DNA of 64,000 bases, taken from the NCBI RefSeq assembly GCF_000521215.1, contig NZ_KI928921.1:269440-333439 (forward strand). The letters run 5' to 3'. Each line of letters begins with the position of its first letter. Position 1 is the stretch's first letter. Under the pieces are notes generated by a model that saw only the letters and a program-made list of their open reading frames with translations, made no database searches and was not told the origin of the DNA. The translations under genes were made by a program, and so were the position numbers. This DNA comes from Labrenzia sp. DG1229 (GTDB lineage Bacteria > Pseudomonadota > Alphaproteobacteria > Rhizobiales > Stappiaceae). Of this stretch, positions 2,152-31,743 are shown one piece after another.

Positions 2152-3372
2152 TTACCGTCCCAGATCTGCTTCCGGATTGGCACCGATCTTGTGGATCGAC
2201 AGGTCTGCCCCCTGGTATTCTTCTTCCTCAGTCATGCGCAGTCCCATGGCTGACTTGAGAATGCCATAGACAACAAATCCTGCACCCGCGGCATAGCCGA
2301 CGCCCAGCAGTGTTCCGATGATCTGCGAGACCAGTGAGACGCCGCCAAGCCCACCAAGGGCTTCCAGCCCGAAGATACCCGCAGCAACACCGCCCCAGGC
2401 GCCGCAGATCCCGTGCAAGGGCCATACGCCGAGTACATCGTCGATTTTCAGTTTGTTCTGGCAGAATTCGAACCCTGTCACGAAAATGGCACCCGCGACA
2501 CCTCCGACGACCAGACTACCGACCGGATGCATGATATCGGAGCCGGCACAGACCGCCACGAGACCGGCGAGCGCGCCGTTGTGAACAAATCCGGGGTCAT
2601 TCTTGCCGACAATCAGGGCAACCAGAATGCCGCCGACCATTGCCATCAGCGAGTTGATCGCCACCAGGCCGGACGCCGCTTCCAGCGCTCCCGCCGTCAT
2701 GACATTGAAGCCGAACCAGCCGACGCACAACATCCAGGAACCCAGGGCAAGCCACGGCAGGGACGACGGCGGAATACCGATCGGGCGGCCGTTTCGGTCG
2801 TATCGCCCGCGCCTTGCACCCAGGAGCATGACGGCGGCAAGGGCAATCCATCCGCCAACCCCATGCACCACGACGGATCCGGCGAAATCGTGGAAGCTGG
2901 CCCCGAACTGCGCCTCAAGCCAGGACTGAAGTCCGAAATTTCCGTTCCAGACGACCCCTTCGAACAGGGGATAAACGATCCCGACAAGCGCGACAGTTGC
3001 AGCACATTGCGGCCAGAATTTCATTCGTTCGGCAATTCCGCCGGAGATGATGGCAGGTATCGCCGCTGCAAATGTCGTCAGAAAGAAGAACTTCACCAGC
3101 GTTAGCCCCTGAAGTTCAAAGCCTCCGCCGCCTCCGGAAAGGGTCGCCGCGTTCACGAAGAAGGTCGTGCCATAGGCAAAGGCATAACCCACAAAGAAGT
3201 AGGCAACGGTTGAAAGTGCGAAATCGACCAGGATCTTGACCAACGCATTGACCTGGTTTTTGTGGCGCACCGTTCCGACTTCGAGAAATGCGAAACCGCC
3301 ATGCATCGCGAAGACGAGAATCGCTCCGACCAGCACGAAAAAGACGTCTCCACCGACAGCAGAATTACTCAT
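2152..3372 (-). CDS. Ammonium transporter (Amt/AmtB family), no signal peptide
   Basis: Amt-family ammonium channel of 406 residues with about eleven transmembrane helices. The two pore histidines are present (H170 in VVVHGVGG and H320 in VWPLHGICG), as is the conserved SGGIAERMKFW helix start. The cytoplasmic tail (MTEEEEYQGADLSIH) resembles tails bound by PII proteins such as GlnK. Unlike the other Amt of this window (4924-6261) it has no cleavable signal peptide and begins directly with helix 1; the two proteins are clearly diverged. A GGGGGG Shine-Dalgarno-like run precedes the ATG. It is monocistronic, convergent to the HAD gene and divergent from the chemoreceptor. A sigma-54-like promoter lies 59-73 bases upstream, suggesting induction under nitrogen limitation. 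Confidence 0.95.
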   Translation of the reverse strand: MSNSAVGGDVFFVLVGAILVFAMHGGFAFLEVGTVRHKNQVNALVKILVDFALSTVAYFFVGYAFAYGTTFFVNAATLSGGGGGFELQGLTLVKFFFLTTFAAAIPAIISGGIAERMKFWPQCAATVALVGIVYPLFEGVVWNGNFGLQSWLEAQFGASFHDFAGSVVVHGVGGWIALAAVMLLGARRGRYDRNGRPIGIPPSSLPWLALGSWMLCVGWFGFNVMTAGALEAASGLVAINSLMAMVGGILVALIVGKNDPGFVHNGALAGLVAVCAGSDIMHPVGSLVVGGVAGAIFVTGFEFCQNKLKIDDVLGVWPLHGICGAWGGVAAGIFGLEALGGLGGVSLVSQIIGTLLGVGYAAGAGFVVYGILKSAMGLRMTEEEEYQGADLSIHKIGANPEADLGR

Positions 3373-3693
3373 GATTGCCCCCCAGTTAGGCAGAATGCCA
3401 TTAGATTTTGCTTATTGGATCATGAGGAATTCAATTTGCATGCCAAACAGGCAAATGCCGAAAAGAAAGGCTGAAAACAGCCGATTTTGCGAACACTTGG
3501 CCAATATTACCTGCGTCTGATTATGTTTGAGTCGCATAAAAAGTAATCAATTGAACACTTCTTATGCGGGCGTGACCCGTTACGAATCAGGTCCTGAATA
3601 CACCCGATAACAATTGAGACTTCCCGACCGGTTTTCACAGTATTAACCATGTTGTCCGATCATGCTGCCGCTGCGAGGAGAAGGCTGAGTCCA
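3373..3693. promoter_or_regulatory. Divergent control region between ammonium transporter and chemoreceptor
   Basis: This 321-base stretch has no convincing gene. It holds the sigma-54-like element of the minus-strand ammonium transporter (3431-3445). Separated half-sites TGATTA (3518-3523) and TAATCA (3544-3549) are also present. The same halves form tight palindromes upstream of glnK, so the two nitrogen units may share a regulator. The chemoreceptor start is preceded by GAGGAGAAGG (3675-3684). Confidence 0.5.
3431..3445 (-). promoter_or_regulatory. Candidate sigma-54 (RpoN) promoter for the ammonium transporter
   Basis: On the minus strand the sequence TGGCATGCAAATTGA matches the RpoN consensus TGGCACG-N4-TTGC except at two bases. 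GG at 3444-3443 and GA at 3432-3431 are separated by the required 10 bases; the usual -12 C is an A. The expected start of transcription is near 3420, about 48 bases before the ATG. Confidence 0.5.
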
Positions 3694-4809
3694 ATGTTCA
3701 AGCGAGCCTTGATAACGGCGATTGTCGTCGGGTCGATACTGACAATTATCAATCAGGTTGATGCCATTTTCGGAACTGCCGAACTTGTTGTGTGGCAGGC
3801 GCTTCTTTCAACGGTAGTGCCGTTTCTGGTTTCGCTTGTCAGTGCCTACCTGACACTGAAAACCAGGAAACCGGCAAATGAGACCGGGCAGGAAGCGACT
3901 GATCAGGAAAGCGAACCTCGAGATAGTGCGGACGTAACCCGGGTCTCCCCTGGCAATGATCGGGATTTGCCCACCGATGTCGACATCGAACAGCTCAAAG
4001 AAGCCTGGGCAGTTGTTTCCCAGATCGGACAGAATGCGCGGGCCGTAAACACGGCGAGCAAGGAACGGGCAGACTTTCTTGCGGACTTGATATCGACCGC
4101 AGAACGGATCCAGGAGGACCTCCATTCCGTCGGGACCCAGGCGCAAAGCTGTACGCAGGATCTTGTCAACGCAGGGGGCAAGATTACCGAAGCCCGCGAA
4201 GGTATCCAGTCGATTTCGCAGACCTGTATCGGTGCCGCGGAATTGATCGGTCATCTGAACACGTCAACGAGCGACCTCACCCACAAGTTCAACGACATCG
4301 AAACCCTCGCGCAGGAAATTTCGTCGATCTCCGCGCAAACCAATCTTCTTGCTCTCAACGCCACGATCGAGGCAGCACGTGCCGGAGATGCCGGCAAGGG
4401 TTTTGCTGTCGTAGCGGGCGAGGTCAAAGTGCTTGCCGGTTCAACCGAGAAGGCAGTTGAATCGATTGCGACGATCCTTTCGGAAATGACGCGATCGCTT
4501 GCCGAAACACGCCAACTTGTCGAAACCGCAAGAGAAAAACTGCAGCTTTCCGACACGCAAAGTGCAAGCAGTCTCGAACAGATTTCATCGGTAGAGCACT
4601 ATCTGAGCGATCTGACGTGTCGCAACGAGGCGACATCGAAACAGATGACTGACAGAACGATTGCGCTTGATGAAGTTTCGACGAACCTTCACAAGATCCA
4701 TCAGGACACTGAAAACGCTATCAAGGGCTCCGCCCGGAACATCGAACTCGCGCATCGCGCTTCCGAAACGGTTCAGGAAGTCGCCGAACGATTGCAACAG
4801 CCGGCCTGA
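3694..4809 (+). CDS. Chemoreceptor (MCP) with an NrtS-like membrane domain
   Basis: A 371-residue methyl-accepting chemotaxis protein of unusual build. Residues 1-56 form two membrane helices with a short linker; the pattern ([37 protein letters not shown]) resembles the small nitrate/nitrite transporter NrtS. There is no periplasmic ligand domain and no HAMP. A charged linker (57-105) leads to the coiled-coil signalling domain. Its tip is at about 212-250 ([27 protein letters not shown]), the conserved CheA/CheW contact. I chose the ATG at 3694 because GAGGAGAAGG precedes it; an ATG at 3649 has no ribosome site. The gene sits between two ammonium transporters, so a role in sensing nitrogen compounds is a reasonable inference. 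The NrtS likeness is by eye only. Confidence 0.75.
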
Positions 4810-4923: not shown

Positions 4924-6261
4924 TCAAAGACGCTGGGATCCCGTTCCGAATTCCGGATAGGCCTCCACGCCGATTTCGACTTTGTCGAGACCAAGCGCTT
5001 CTTCTTCGTCGGATACCCGTATGCCGATGGTAACCTTGAGGACATACCAGACGATACCGCTGGCCACGAAGGTGAAGGCACCGTAGGCAGCGATCCCTGT
5101 GATCTGTGTGCCGTAGGATGCATCGCCATTCGTCAACGGAACAATCAGGGTTCCCCAGATACCGGCCAGCAGGTGAACCGGGATAGCGCCTACAACATCG
5201 TCGATCTTGAACTTGTCGAGCACCGGAACGGCCAGGACAACGATCGCACCACCAACACCGCCGATGAAGAGCGTTGCCCACATACTGGGAGCAAGCGGTT
5301 CGGCCGTGATCGAAACCAGACCTGCGAGTGCGCCGTTCAGCGCCATGGTAACATCGACTTTCTTGTAAAGCAGTTGGGTCATGATGACGGCAACCACAAC
5401 GCCGGCAGCAGCTGCCATGTTGGTATTGGCGAAGATGCGTGAAACATCGGTCACATCGCTGATGGAGCCCATTGCAAGCTGCGAAGCACCGTTGAAGCCG
5501 AACCAGCCGAGCCAGAGGATGAACGTACCAAGCGTTGCGAGCGGCATGGATGAACCCGGGAATGGATGAACTGTGCCGTCCGCACCATATTTGCCTTTAC
5601 GCGCACCTAGAATGATGGCACCGGAGAGCGCAGCCCAGCCACCGACGGAGTGAACGATCGTGGATCCGGCAAAGTCGGAAAAACCCATCTCGGACAGCCA
5701 TCCGGCACCCCATTGCCAGGAACCGGAAATCGGGTAGAGAAAACCGGTCAGGATCGCTGTGAAAATCAGGAAAGGCCACAGCTTTACGCGCTCTGCAACT
5801 GTTCCGGAGACGATAGAGGCGGTCGCGGCCACGAAGACCATCTGGAAGAACCAGTCGGAAGCGGTGGAATAACCTGTATCGAGCGCATCACCGCCGACAG
5901 GATCAAAAGAGTACGGACCTAGCGAACCGATGAAACCGCCGTCGACACCGCTGTACATCAGGTTATAGCCGGTAACCCAGAACATGATGCCCGCGATGGA
6001 ATAAAGCGTGATATTCTTCAGGCATTGCATCGAAACGTTCTTGGAACGGACAAGTCCTGCCTCCAGCATGGCGAAGCCTGCCGCCATCCACATGACAAGG
6101 AAGCCGCCAATGAGGAACAAGAGCGTGTTGAAGATGTAGGCGACTTCCGGAGAAACGGCCGGAGTTTCCGGTGCAGCCGTCGCGTCCTGAGCCAATACCG
6201 GGAGAGCCGAAAGGCTCAACACGGCAAGCGCTGTCGCGCACTTAGCAGCGATACTTTTCAT
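4924..6261 (-). CDS. amtB: Ammonium transporter AmtB (glnK-linked, with signal peptide)
   Basis: Amt-family ammonium channel of 445 residues. A cleavable signal peptide (residues 1-24, ending PVLA before QDATAA) is followed by about eleven transmembrane helices. The pore histidines are H204 (STIVHSVGG) and H362 (AIPVHLLAG), and the conserved SGTVAERVKLW segment is present. The gene lies 20 bases downstream of glnK on the same strand, the classic glnK-amtB arrangement in which uridylylation-free GlnK plugs the channel when ammonium is plentiful. The tail (VSDEEEALGLDKVEIG) is the expected GlnK-contact end. Expression probably comes from the sigma-54-like promoter in front of glnK. Confidence 0.96.
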   Translation of the reverse strand: MKSIAAKCATALAVLSLSALPVLAQDATAAPETPAVSPEVAYIFNTLLFLIGGFLVMWMAAGFAMLEAGLVRSKNVSMQCLKNITLYSIAGIMFWVTGYNLMYSGVDGGFIGSLGPYSFDPVGGDALDTGYSTASDWFFQMVFVAATASIVSGTVAERVKLWPFLIFTAILTGFLYPISGSWQWGAGWLSEMGFSDFAGSTIVHSVGGWAALSGAIILGARKGKYGADGTVHPFPGSSMPLATLGTFILWLGWFGFNGASQLAMGSISDVTDVSRIFANTNMAAAAGVVVAVIMTQLLYKKVDVTMALNGALAGLVSITAEPLAPSMWATLFIGGVGGAIVVLAVPVLDKFKIDDVVGAIPVHLLAGIWGTLIVPLTNGDASYGTQITGIAAYGAFTFVASGIVWYVLKVTIGIRVSDEEEALGLDKVEIGVEAYPEFGTGSQRL

Positions 6262-6281: not shown

Positions 6282-6719
<438 letters not shown>

Positions 6720-29839: not shown

Positions 29840-30237
29840 GCCGTTCCATTAGCCCCCCTCGCTTAAAATGTCATCAATGGATGTGCGCATTTTCGCAATC
29901 CGGTTTGACAGAAAGGCCCATGCCCCTGCCCCGGGGGCTCAAGTGGCTCGAATTCAGAGCATGGTCCCGAAACAAGCATGTTGAATATTCGGAATAAAAT
30001 TCAAATCTTGAATGAAATATCCAATATTTTGACAATTTCTTCCAAATAAATCTTCTTTATTTTGCGTTTAAAAAAATAAACACTTTAAAAACTCAGCTTT
30101 TCTCTAACAATTAATCATCAACTTGTCACACCTTTGCCACAGATATACTGATTAATTATTAAAGATAGCCGGTTTTTTTGTGAACAAAACCGCGTTCACT
30201 TTCATTGACACCCAACAAAGCTGAGGAGGGGAATTCG
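29840..30237. promoter_or_regulatory. AT-rich region upstream of the CBM2 protein gene
   Basis: A 398-base stretch without a gene. From about 29985 to 30170 it is far more AT-rich than the rest of the window, with runs such as AAAAAAATAAA and many AATTAAT blocks. It holds a promoter-like pair at 30134-30162. Such sequence is typical of xenogeneic-silencer binding or of a strong upstream element. Confidence 0.55.
30134..30162 (+). promoter_or_regulatory. Promoter-like element for the CBM2 protein gene
   Basis: TTGCCA, 17 bases, TATTAA. Transcription would begin near 30169, giving a leader of about 70 bases before the ATG at 30238. Confidence 0.45.
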
Positions 30238-31743
30238 ATGGCAGCCCAGTACGCGACGTCGGATGCGACACTTGATTACACTGTCAGTGATCAGTGGCAA
30301 GGCGGGTTTGTGGGACGAATGGCCTTGTCTTCCCAAGAAGGGGCGGACGGTTGGCGCATCGCATTTCGGCTGGATGCCGAGATTGACGCGATCTGGAATG
30401 CCCGCATCATTTCTCGCATCGATGACACCTATGTCATCGAAGGCGTCTCATACAACAGCAGCCTGACCGCGGGTGAATCGGCAACATTCGGATTTACGGC
30501 CCGGGGAACAGACACATCCATAGATGCGGACAGTGTTTCGATAGACAGCACGCCGGTCGACACCGGACCCGTCGACCCGGTTCCGGATGAACCTGATCCC
30601 GTTCAACCGGATCCTGTGGACCCGGCACCCGCCGATCCATCACCAGGTCCGGGCGACTATGTCGATATTACATCTTTCGGCAACTTCCACGGCAGCAGCA
30701 GCCACACCGGTCACGATGAACTCCATGGCGGGCGCACGGCCATCACCACGGAAGCACTCGTGGCTTACAACGGACTGCGCAATTTTCTCGGCTACCAGAA
30801 CACGGAACTGGAGATCATCGGCCAATGGGCCTTCGACAACGACCTTACAAACAATGACCAGGCATGGGGTCAGGACTTGCAGGGTGTTGGTCTTTATTAC
30901 GCGATGCAGGCAGCAAAGGTCGGCTGGATCCGCGACAATGCGTTCGACCCGCAACTCCTGGCCGATATCCAACGCACGGCCCGGCTCGGTGATCCGGCCG
31001 ATGTCATGATAATGGTCGAGGCAAACAGCCACGTAGGTTTTGCGGATTACCTGGTCCAAAACGGGCTTGTCGAGACATTCATCAACACGCTGAAAATGGA
31101 ACCACACTACGGCGGCTGGATGCACGGGCGCGTTCACGGCGACCTGACTTTTCCAGATGGTGACGGCGCCCGGGCTCATGACGTCAATCACCTGACGGTG
31201 CTTAGCCATGACCAGACGCAGCCATTCATGAATGACACGTTTGACTGGCCGCAATGGAGCGCCCTGGACGTGCCCCATCAGGACGTCATCGATTATTTCC
31301 AATCCATGGTCGTTCTTGGTGATCCTATTGGTGACGCCCTGCCGGATGGCAGTGCACCCGACCCGGTCGATCCTGATCCCGTCGAACCTGATCCGGTGGA
31401 CCCAGATCCGGTTGATCCTGACCCTGTGGATCCTGCGTCAGGCCTGTCGGCGGAGTTTCAGGTCGTCAATGACTGGGGACACGGCGCAACGCTCAACATT
31501 GTGGTCAGCAACGACGGAACCGAAGATGTCACGGACTGGGATCTCGAATTCACACTCGGGTCGGACATTCAGCACATCTGGAACGCGGTCGTGGACTCTC
31601 ACGATGGGGACCGCTATTCGATCGATGACGCCGGATACAATGCAGGCATCGGTGCCGGAGGGTCGGTAACGATCGGCTTCAACACTACGACAGGCGGCTT
31701 CGATGCAGCGCAACTGAACGAGGAAGCGCAGTTCATCTTCTAG
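30238..31743 (+). CDS. Protein with two CBM2-like domains around an unknown core
   Basis: A 501-residue acidic protein. Residues 4-90 (DYTVSDQWQGGFVGRMAL, DAIWNARI, VSYNSSLTAGES) and 402-501 (FQVVNDWGHGATLNIVV, HIWNAVV, GYNAGIGAGGS) are family-2 carbohydrate-binding modules, the type that binds cellulose or chitin. Both lack the usual cysteine pair. Pro/Asp linkers (about 103-140 and 373-401, repeats of DPVDP) join them to a core of about 230 residues that I cannot assign; it has His-rich patches such as NFHGSSSHTGHDELHGG and HGRVHGD. There is no signal peptide after the ATG chosen behind GAGGAGGGG, although such domains act outside the cell. No secretion genes are adjacent. Confidence 0.75.
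   Translation: MAAQYATSDATLDYTVSDQWQGGFVGRMALSSQEGADGWRIAFRLDAEIDAIWNARIISRIDDTYVIEGVSYNSSLTAGESATFGFTARGTDTSIDADSVSIDSTPVDTGPVDPVPDEPDPVQPDPVDPAPADPSPGPGDYVDITSFGNFHGSSSHTGHDELHGGRTAITTEALVAYNGLRNFLGYQNTELEIIGQWAFDNDLTNNDQAWGQDLQGVGLYYAMQAAKVGWIRDNAFDPQLLADIQRTARLGDPADVMIMVEANSHVGFADYLVQNGLVETFINTLKMEPHYGGWMHGRVHGDLTFPDGDGARAHDVNHLTVLSHDQTQPFMNDTFDWPQWSALDVPHQDVIDYFQSMVVLGDPIGDALPDGSAPDPVDPDPVEPDPVDPDPVDPDPVDPASGLSAEFQVVNDWGHGATLNIVVSNDGTEDVTDWDLEFTLGSDIQHIWNAVVDSHDGDRYSIDDAGYNAGIGAGGSVTIGFNTTTGGFDAAQLNEEAQFIF

Follow-up and report, generated by a model that had tools for sequence, protein, structure and literature searches.

Methyl-accepting chemotaxis proteins (MCPs) in general control the kinase CheA through their signalling tip. 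Extracytoplasmic folds serve as the sensory domain of many chemoreceptors, and a HAMP domain is common in MCPs but not universal. NrtS is a nitrate/nitrite transporter that was reportedly described by Maeda et al. in Plant Cell Physiol in 2019, and we take family NF038050 to represent it. NrtS, MCPs and nitrate chemotaxis through McpN are all known already; the last is documented in the McpN report, where McpN is a nitrate chemoreceptor whose periplasmic PilJ domain carries an N-box (PMC6381276). Nitrate input to an MCP, reported for McpN, is also what we propose for the receptor described here; McpN senses through its periplasmic domain, whereas this receptor has none. The nitrate-responsive comparison extends to NarX and NarQ, which according to PMC8199190 are histidine kinases with a periplasmic sensor and with a P-box that a segment of the receptor weakly resembles.

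Among the matches listed for the open-licence PMC literature, judged by title or the start of the abstract, none reported an NrtS-chemoreceptor fusion, and none of those found for an Amt-MCP fusion bore on the topic by title. We see here a variation on a known type: a chemoreceptor class with a transporter-derived sensory part and a base module of its own.

Domain architecture of the receptor

The window, that is the whole stretch of 64,000 nucleotides that was analysed, comes from a 7.6-Mb genome and contains the receptor gene at positions 3694–4809 of the forward strand, encoding 371 residues. A longer frame starts at 3649; the Met at 3694, within the sequence M(F/L)KRA, is common to the window protein and its six homologues in the genus. 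A 96% identical copy is carried by Roseibium album CECT 5095.

In the protein, a variable linker joins an NrtS-type two-helix unit to an MCP signalling domain. The membrane unit spans residues 1–57 (positions 3694–3864, forward strand) and was delimited by NF038050, a profile of stand-alone NrtS proteins, conservation in the genus and hydropathy, which reveals two hydrophobic stretches (TM1, approximately residues 5–24, and TM2, approximately 33–55) separated by a short loop. By the positive-inside rule both ends of this hairpin would lie in the cytoplasm. Residues 58–105 (3865–4008) form the charged linker that the earlier note had described; in the alignments it is poorly conserved and variable in length. 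It leads into a helix segment with the motif NAxxVNxxSxxR (N-base, residues 106–146; 4009–4131), the MCP signalling domain with its kinase-control tip (4273–4704) and a returning helix segment with the motif A(I/V)xGSxxN (C-base, residues 324–361; 4663–4776), all on the forward strand. Both base segments were defined by alignments, HMMs and spacing.

The MCP signalling tip expected after the linker is present: PF00015 (MCPsignal) scored 92.5 bits against a cut-off of 34.6 and was the sole Pfam family above its curated cut-off. No HAMP appeared among the Pfam matches up to E 10, where the remaining entries were weak coiled-coil matches, and the protein lacks a periplasmic domain, in agreement with the architecture first proposed; even with the limit at 10, the HMMER filters discard most matches above about 0.1.

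The N-terminal hairpin is homologous to NrtS

An NCBIfam search with residues 1–60, which the earlier note had suggested as a check, returned NF038050 as the top match (21.9 bits, E 1.2e-4, cut-off 25); the same model scored 17.6 bits (E 0.0025) against the whole protein. As the window protein does not reach the curated cut-off, homology was tested in both directions. A profile was built from 12 stand-alone NrtS proteins, the over-cut-off members in a 289-genome sample of the class, and the window protein scored 59.9 bits with it. Shuffles of residues 1–60 reached at most 10.4 bits (4915 scored of 5000 made), and the second-best of the window's 588 frames of 60 or more residues reached 3.5 bits. 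In the reverse direction, a profile of the seven N-termini from the genus matched 19 of the 289 class genomes, the window's own included, and these comprised all 12 genomes with NrtS over the NCBIfam cut-off, matched at the same places. Because these 12 proteins were found by both searches, the stand-alone profile may lean toward the fusion side of the family; the margin is large. The N-terminus is homologous to NrtS beyond chance, as first noted from its sequence. In the window's genome, a search up to E 10 matched NrtS nowhere but in the fusion itself.

The hairpin shares with NrtS its two helices, an Arg, and the motifs VVG, (I)NQ and VPF/Y; it differs from NF038050 members in being fused to an MCP, in scoring under the curated cut-off and in missing a Lys at the entry to TM2. 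Among the 13 fusions described below, the TM1 Gly and an Asn-Gln pair are present in 13/13 and VP in 12/13. Across the seven copies in the genus the mean column identity is 86% for the hairpin and 80% for the whole protein.

The fusion recurs across the phylum

Scans of 61, 289, 297 and 299 genomes, in overlapping samples, yielded 13 NrtS-MCP fusions in six families (counted by code); the profile used on the 297 and 299 genomes already contained some fusions, and the scan for the receptor in the genus scored at most 32 candidates per genome. Seven fusions belong to the window's genus. Six more were found, one each, in two genomes of the same class (G075 and G312), two genomes of one family in the same order (G436 and G402) and two of the same phylum from another class (G842 and G619). 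All five of the outside fusions that were Pfam-scanned, i.e. all but G842, exceeded the MCPsignal cut-off, and the G842 fusion has the tip motif visible in the alignment. NF038050 was the best NCBIfam match for the N-termini of the six outside fusions and of the two shorter relatives described below, at 14.7–24.3 bits, with every score under the cut-off of 25; with the stand-alone NrtS profile the 13 fusions and these two relatives scored 37–73 bits. Collecting homologues with the same fusion had also been suggested beforehand, and their N-termini proved to be homologous to each other, not unrelated two-helix units. A transporter-like unit standing in place of the sensory part, as originally noticed in a single gene, is thus a recurrent arrangement in the phylum. 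A search for plasmid-borne relatives gave no match.

A tree of the MCP part puts the 13 fusions and 29 ordinary MCPs on opposite sides of a single branch (SH-aLRT 100). The tree program warns of long branches, and that the fusion arose once is therefore only suggested.

Two shorter proteins, at positions 4951–5598 (reverse strand) of locus L119 and 2835–3335 (reverse strand) of locus L121, come from two genomes of one genus, G362 and G465. They hold the NrtS hairpin and both base segments, lack the whole upper bundle and the tip, and keep the TM2-entry Lys. No Pfam family matched either protein up to E 1. In these minis, hairpin and base are seen side by side in the absence of a signalling tip.

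Several other proteins were noticed in passing. Proteins of 164–205 residues in which, by reading, a further, diverged hairpin comes after an NrtS-like unit lie in loci L118 (7936–8553), L120 (8390–8935), L122 (7719–8213) and L055 (around 8570), and one of the same kind occurs in L026 as a 247-residue open frame. Those in L118, L120 and L122 adjoin a gene for a membrane protein of 225–235 residues, and two of these three loci are also near a MarR-like regulator, the names being given by reading only. At L117 5960–7483 (forward strand) in G619, the NrtS-MCP gene adjoins and converges with a gene for a PAS-domain chemoreceptor.

A conserved base module lies at a fixed distance from the signalling tip

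Besides the hairpin and the tip, alignment of the fusions revealed a third conserved block, a pair of helices located where the bundle is closest to the membrane. The inbound motif NAxxVNxxSxxR, with TA replacing NA in G075, lies 103 residues before LLALNA in 13/13 fusions. The outbound motif A(I/V)xGSxxN lies 125 residues after LLALNA in 12/13, and 129 after it in G619. With N-base and C-base HMMs built without the sequences of the genus, the window protein scored 42.3 and 34.3 bits, respectively, while the other 29 of the 30 MCP frames in the same genome reached at most 10.2 and 5.4 bits (frames were taken from loci with 1500-base flanks, and some are cut). A base profile run on the 289 class genomes matched just three, all of them fusion carriers; as these three genomes contribute to the profile, what counts is the absence of any further match. 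A PDB search with the N-base returned three weak matches, none of them a sensor (best E 0.094).

The receptor resembles ordinary MCPs of the same genome in PF00015, in its tip and in the length after the tip (155 residues, vs 154 in most of them). It differs at the inbound helix: in 19 of the 29 ordinary MCPs, those that could be matched, a motif that is presumably that of the methylation helix precedes the tip by 68 residues. Although other high-scoring matches of the N-base in an ungapped scan include the ordinary first methylation helix, we reject the possibility that the N-base is simply this helix on account of the spacing, 103 vs 68 residues.

The stretch that links hairpin to base is hypervariable in both the genus and the fusion alignments, which makes rigid coupling of TM2 to the bundle unlikely in this protein. 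This arrangement bears on the main rival to membrane sensing, namely that the NrtS hairpin is a plain anchor and that a cytoplasmic cue (energy, redox or a metabolite) is sensed through the base or the state of the membrane. A base held at fixed distance from the tip below a variable membrane linker speaks for that explanation; the two minis, which retain NrtS and base and have dropped the tip, are in keeping with it, as is the PAS-MCP gene adjoining the fusion gene in one outside genome. The hairpin argues the other way. It is more conserved in the genus than the protein as a whole, and its family-specific polar Asn-Gln pair, held in 13/13 fusions across six families, exceeds what an anchor needs. 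We consider it unlikely that the hairpin merely anchors a receptor whose base does the sensing, while giving this rival serious weight.

The fusions lack the TM2-entry lysine of NrtS

Residues were counted in 71 distinct NrtS-domain rows (E up to 1e-3). TM2 begins with a Lys, a feature that emerged from this analysis and is not part of a published definition of NrtS, in 45/51 stand-alone NrtS proteins, 0/13 fusions and 2/2 minis; the fusions have Q (9), P (2), T (1) or G (1) at this position. A second TM2 position is Phe in 13/13 fusions, compared with Tyr in 34/51 and Phe in 16/51 stand-alone proteins. If, in line with the positive-inside rule, the N-terminus is cytoplasmic, the Lys would sit at the periplasmic mouth of the hairpin. 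Because this residue is missing, the simplest inference is that the fusion hairpin has kept its core but may have lost transport function. The count is weakened by the close kinship of seven of the 13 fusions, and if the fusion has a single origin the absence of Lys may represent one loss. Lys is also missing from the first unit of each of four double-NrtS-like proteins (4/4), so that receptors are not alone in having lost it.

The same differences in TM2 (Lys lost, Phe in 13/13) would be expected if the hairpin had become a sensor for some other small ligand or anion, its specificity having shifted after fusion. The neighbourhoods of the 13 fusions, read mostly by eye, contained no recognised nitrate genes, which fits this explanation as well, whereas the retention of the shared TM1 core speaks against it. 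A change of ligand strikes us as improbable.

A weak likeness between N-base and P-box is kept as a lead

A further explanation combines an active transporter with an internal sensor: NrtS would import nitrate or nitrite, and a P-box-like N-base ([IV]NxA[G to S]xxR) would bind the anion. When the N-base was scanned without gaps, the P-box was the best position within NarX and also within NarQ, and the published P-box consensus, A-I-N-x-A-G-S-L-R (PMC8199190), aligns with A-V-N-T-A-S-K-E-R of the window protein. McpN is reported to bind nitrate with a hydrogen bond from R61 and contacts from G58, A59 and M62 (PMC6381276). The resemblance weakens on closer comparison. The N-base HMM matched no P-box in NarX or NarQ; 53 and 62 of 41,065 positions outscored the P-boxes of NarX and NarQ, respectively, many of them in coiled coils of ordinary MCPs; and no PilJ match was obtained for eight base segments. 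In place of the nitrate-stacking Gly, 15/15 fusions and minis have Ser, so the receptor N-base reads SxxR where the P-box and N-box of PilJ and NarX have GxxR. Loss of the TM2-entry Lys from the fusions also counts against active transport. We keep the resemblance as a lead only, and regard import followed by internal sensing as very unlikely.

The ammonium neighbourhood reflects one inherited event

The receptor gene lies between two ammonium transporters, as the earlier note had stated: a divergent neighbour at 2152–3372 (reverse strand; PF00909, 297 bits) and a convergent amtB at 4924–6261 (reverse strand; PF00909, 331 bits), with the P-II gene glnK upstream of amtB at 6282–6632 (reverse strand; PF00543, 104 bits). 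All seven copies in the genus adjoin glnK-amtB. Loci L011 and L012, two of these seven, lack the second ammonium transporter (2152–3372 in the window) at this place but retain glnK-amtB and the receptor.

DNA matching amtB-glnK was found in 36/36 other genomes of the genus that were searched, and a receptor match at E 1e-40 in six of these 36 plus the window's own. Thirty of the 36 amtB-glnK loci were inspected with their flanks and contained the receptor in just those six; for the remaining six genomes, absence of the receptor comes from the genome scan (at most 32 candidates each). Altogether 30 of 37 genomes in the genus have glnK-amtB and no receptor match at E 1e-40, 24 of these 30 having also been checked at the locus. 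In a tree of the amtB-glnK region, computed by a quick method, the seven receptor loci form one clade with one change (SH-aLRT 93), so the setting is one inherited event and not seven observations; the association would most simply be one gain in one clade. Nitrogen neighbours of the other fusions had been proposed as a test, and when the translated frames around the six outside fusions were read by eye, no genes for nitrogen transport or assimilation, amt included, were recognised (not every frame could be named, above all around the G842 fusion, and the G436 contig is only 5 kb). The amt association was thus found within one clade, and the nitrogen neighbourhood was dropped as independent support. 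The claim, in the form first given, that this setting makes the receptor a nitrogen sensor is not supported.

That the receptor reports ammonium transport through contact with AmtB/GlnK is highly improbable: adjacency to glnK-amtB in 7/7 genus copies is its support, and against it stand the single change on the tree, the 30/37 genomes that have glnK-amtB and no receptor match, the lack of recognised ammonium genes beside the six outside fusions, and the lack of a sigma-54-like site upstream of the receptor in the seven loci by two strict patterns.

That the window's genome also encodes NapA and NirB counts towards nitrate or nitrite sensing. NapA occurs in 7/7 genus genomes with the receptor gene and 12/30 without it (Fisher one-sided p 0.005), a co-occurrence that we discount as support because it amounts to one independent pair only. 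NapA was over its cut-off in none of the eight outside fusion and mini genomes, two of which are only 61–71% complete, and weaker matches to the NapA model were seen in 7/8. NirB is uninformative as a marker, being found in 35/37 genus genomes at E 1e-50 and over its cut-off in 34.

Elsewhere in the window, positions 30205–31743 (forward strand) hold a 512-residue frame with Pro-Asp-rich repeats between segments that, by reading alone, are like carbohydrate-binding ones.

Proposed mechanism and significance

Our best reading is that the receptor is a transporter-derived, probably non-transporting chemoreceptor for nitrate or nitrite. Its sensory part would be a diverged hairpin of the nitrate/nitrite transporter NrtS, and two hairpins in a receptor dimer would form a four-helix intramembrane unit. 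Nitrate or nitrite may bind this unit without being appreciably transported, as the missing Lys suggests, and binding would alter its packing or dynamics. The base, whose two segments have a conserved position and a presumed role as reader, would detect the change in the membrane and pass it to the MCP tip and hence to the control of CheA. Nitrate or nitrite is the predicted signal because the domain family is named for it and the core of the hairpin is kept; the transport status of the receptor and the direction of its response are likewise presumed. Counting against this reading are the NF038050 scores below the cut-off in fusions and minis, the Lys-less first units of the double-NrtS-like proteins, the hypervariable linker, the failure to recognise nitrate genes next to the fusions (mostly by eye) and the lack of over-cut-off NapA in the eight outside genomes. 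We hold sensing of nitrate or nitrite by the NrtS hairpin without transport, relayed through the base to the tip, with confidence that falls a little short of even.

A broader proposal is that NrtS-MCPs are phylum-wide transporter-derived receptors that have lost the Lys and with it transport, and that have an intramembrane nitrate/nitrite sensor and a dedicated base, the minis that keep the Lys being transport-competent with a regulatory base. In this wider form the idea is doubtful, and we offer it as a possibility.

Beyond signalling bundle and linker, the receptor has just a hairpin of approximately 57 residues from a transporter family, which would be a very small sensory unit. The identity of this hairpin gives a specific ligand hypothesis, nitrate or nitrite, and the TM2-entry Lys is a candidate residue-level marker dividing sensors from transporters. 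Together with the natural relatives that lack the tip, these make the conversion of a transporter into a receptor directly testable.
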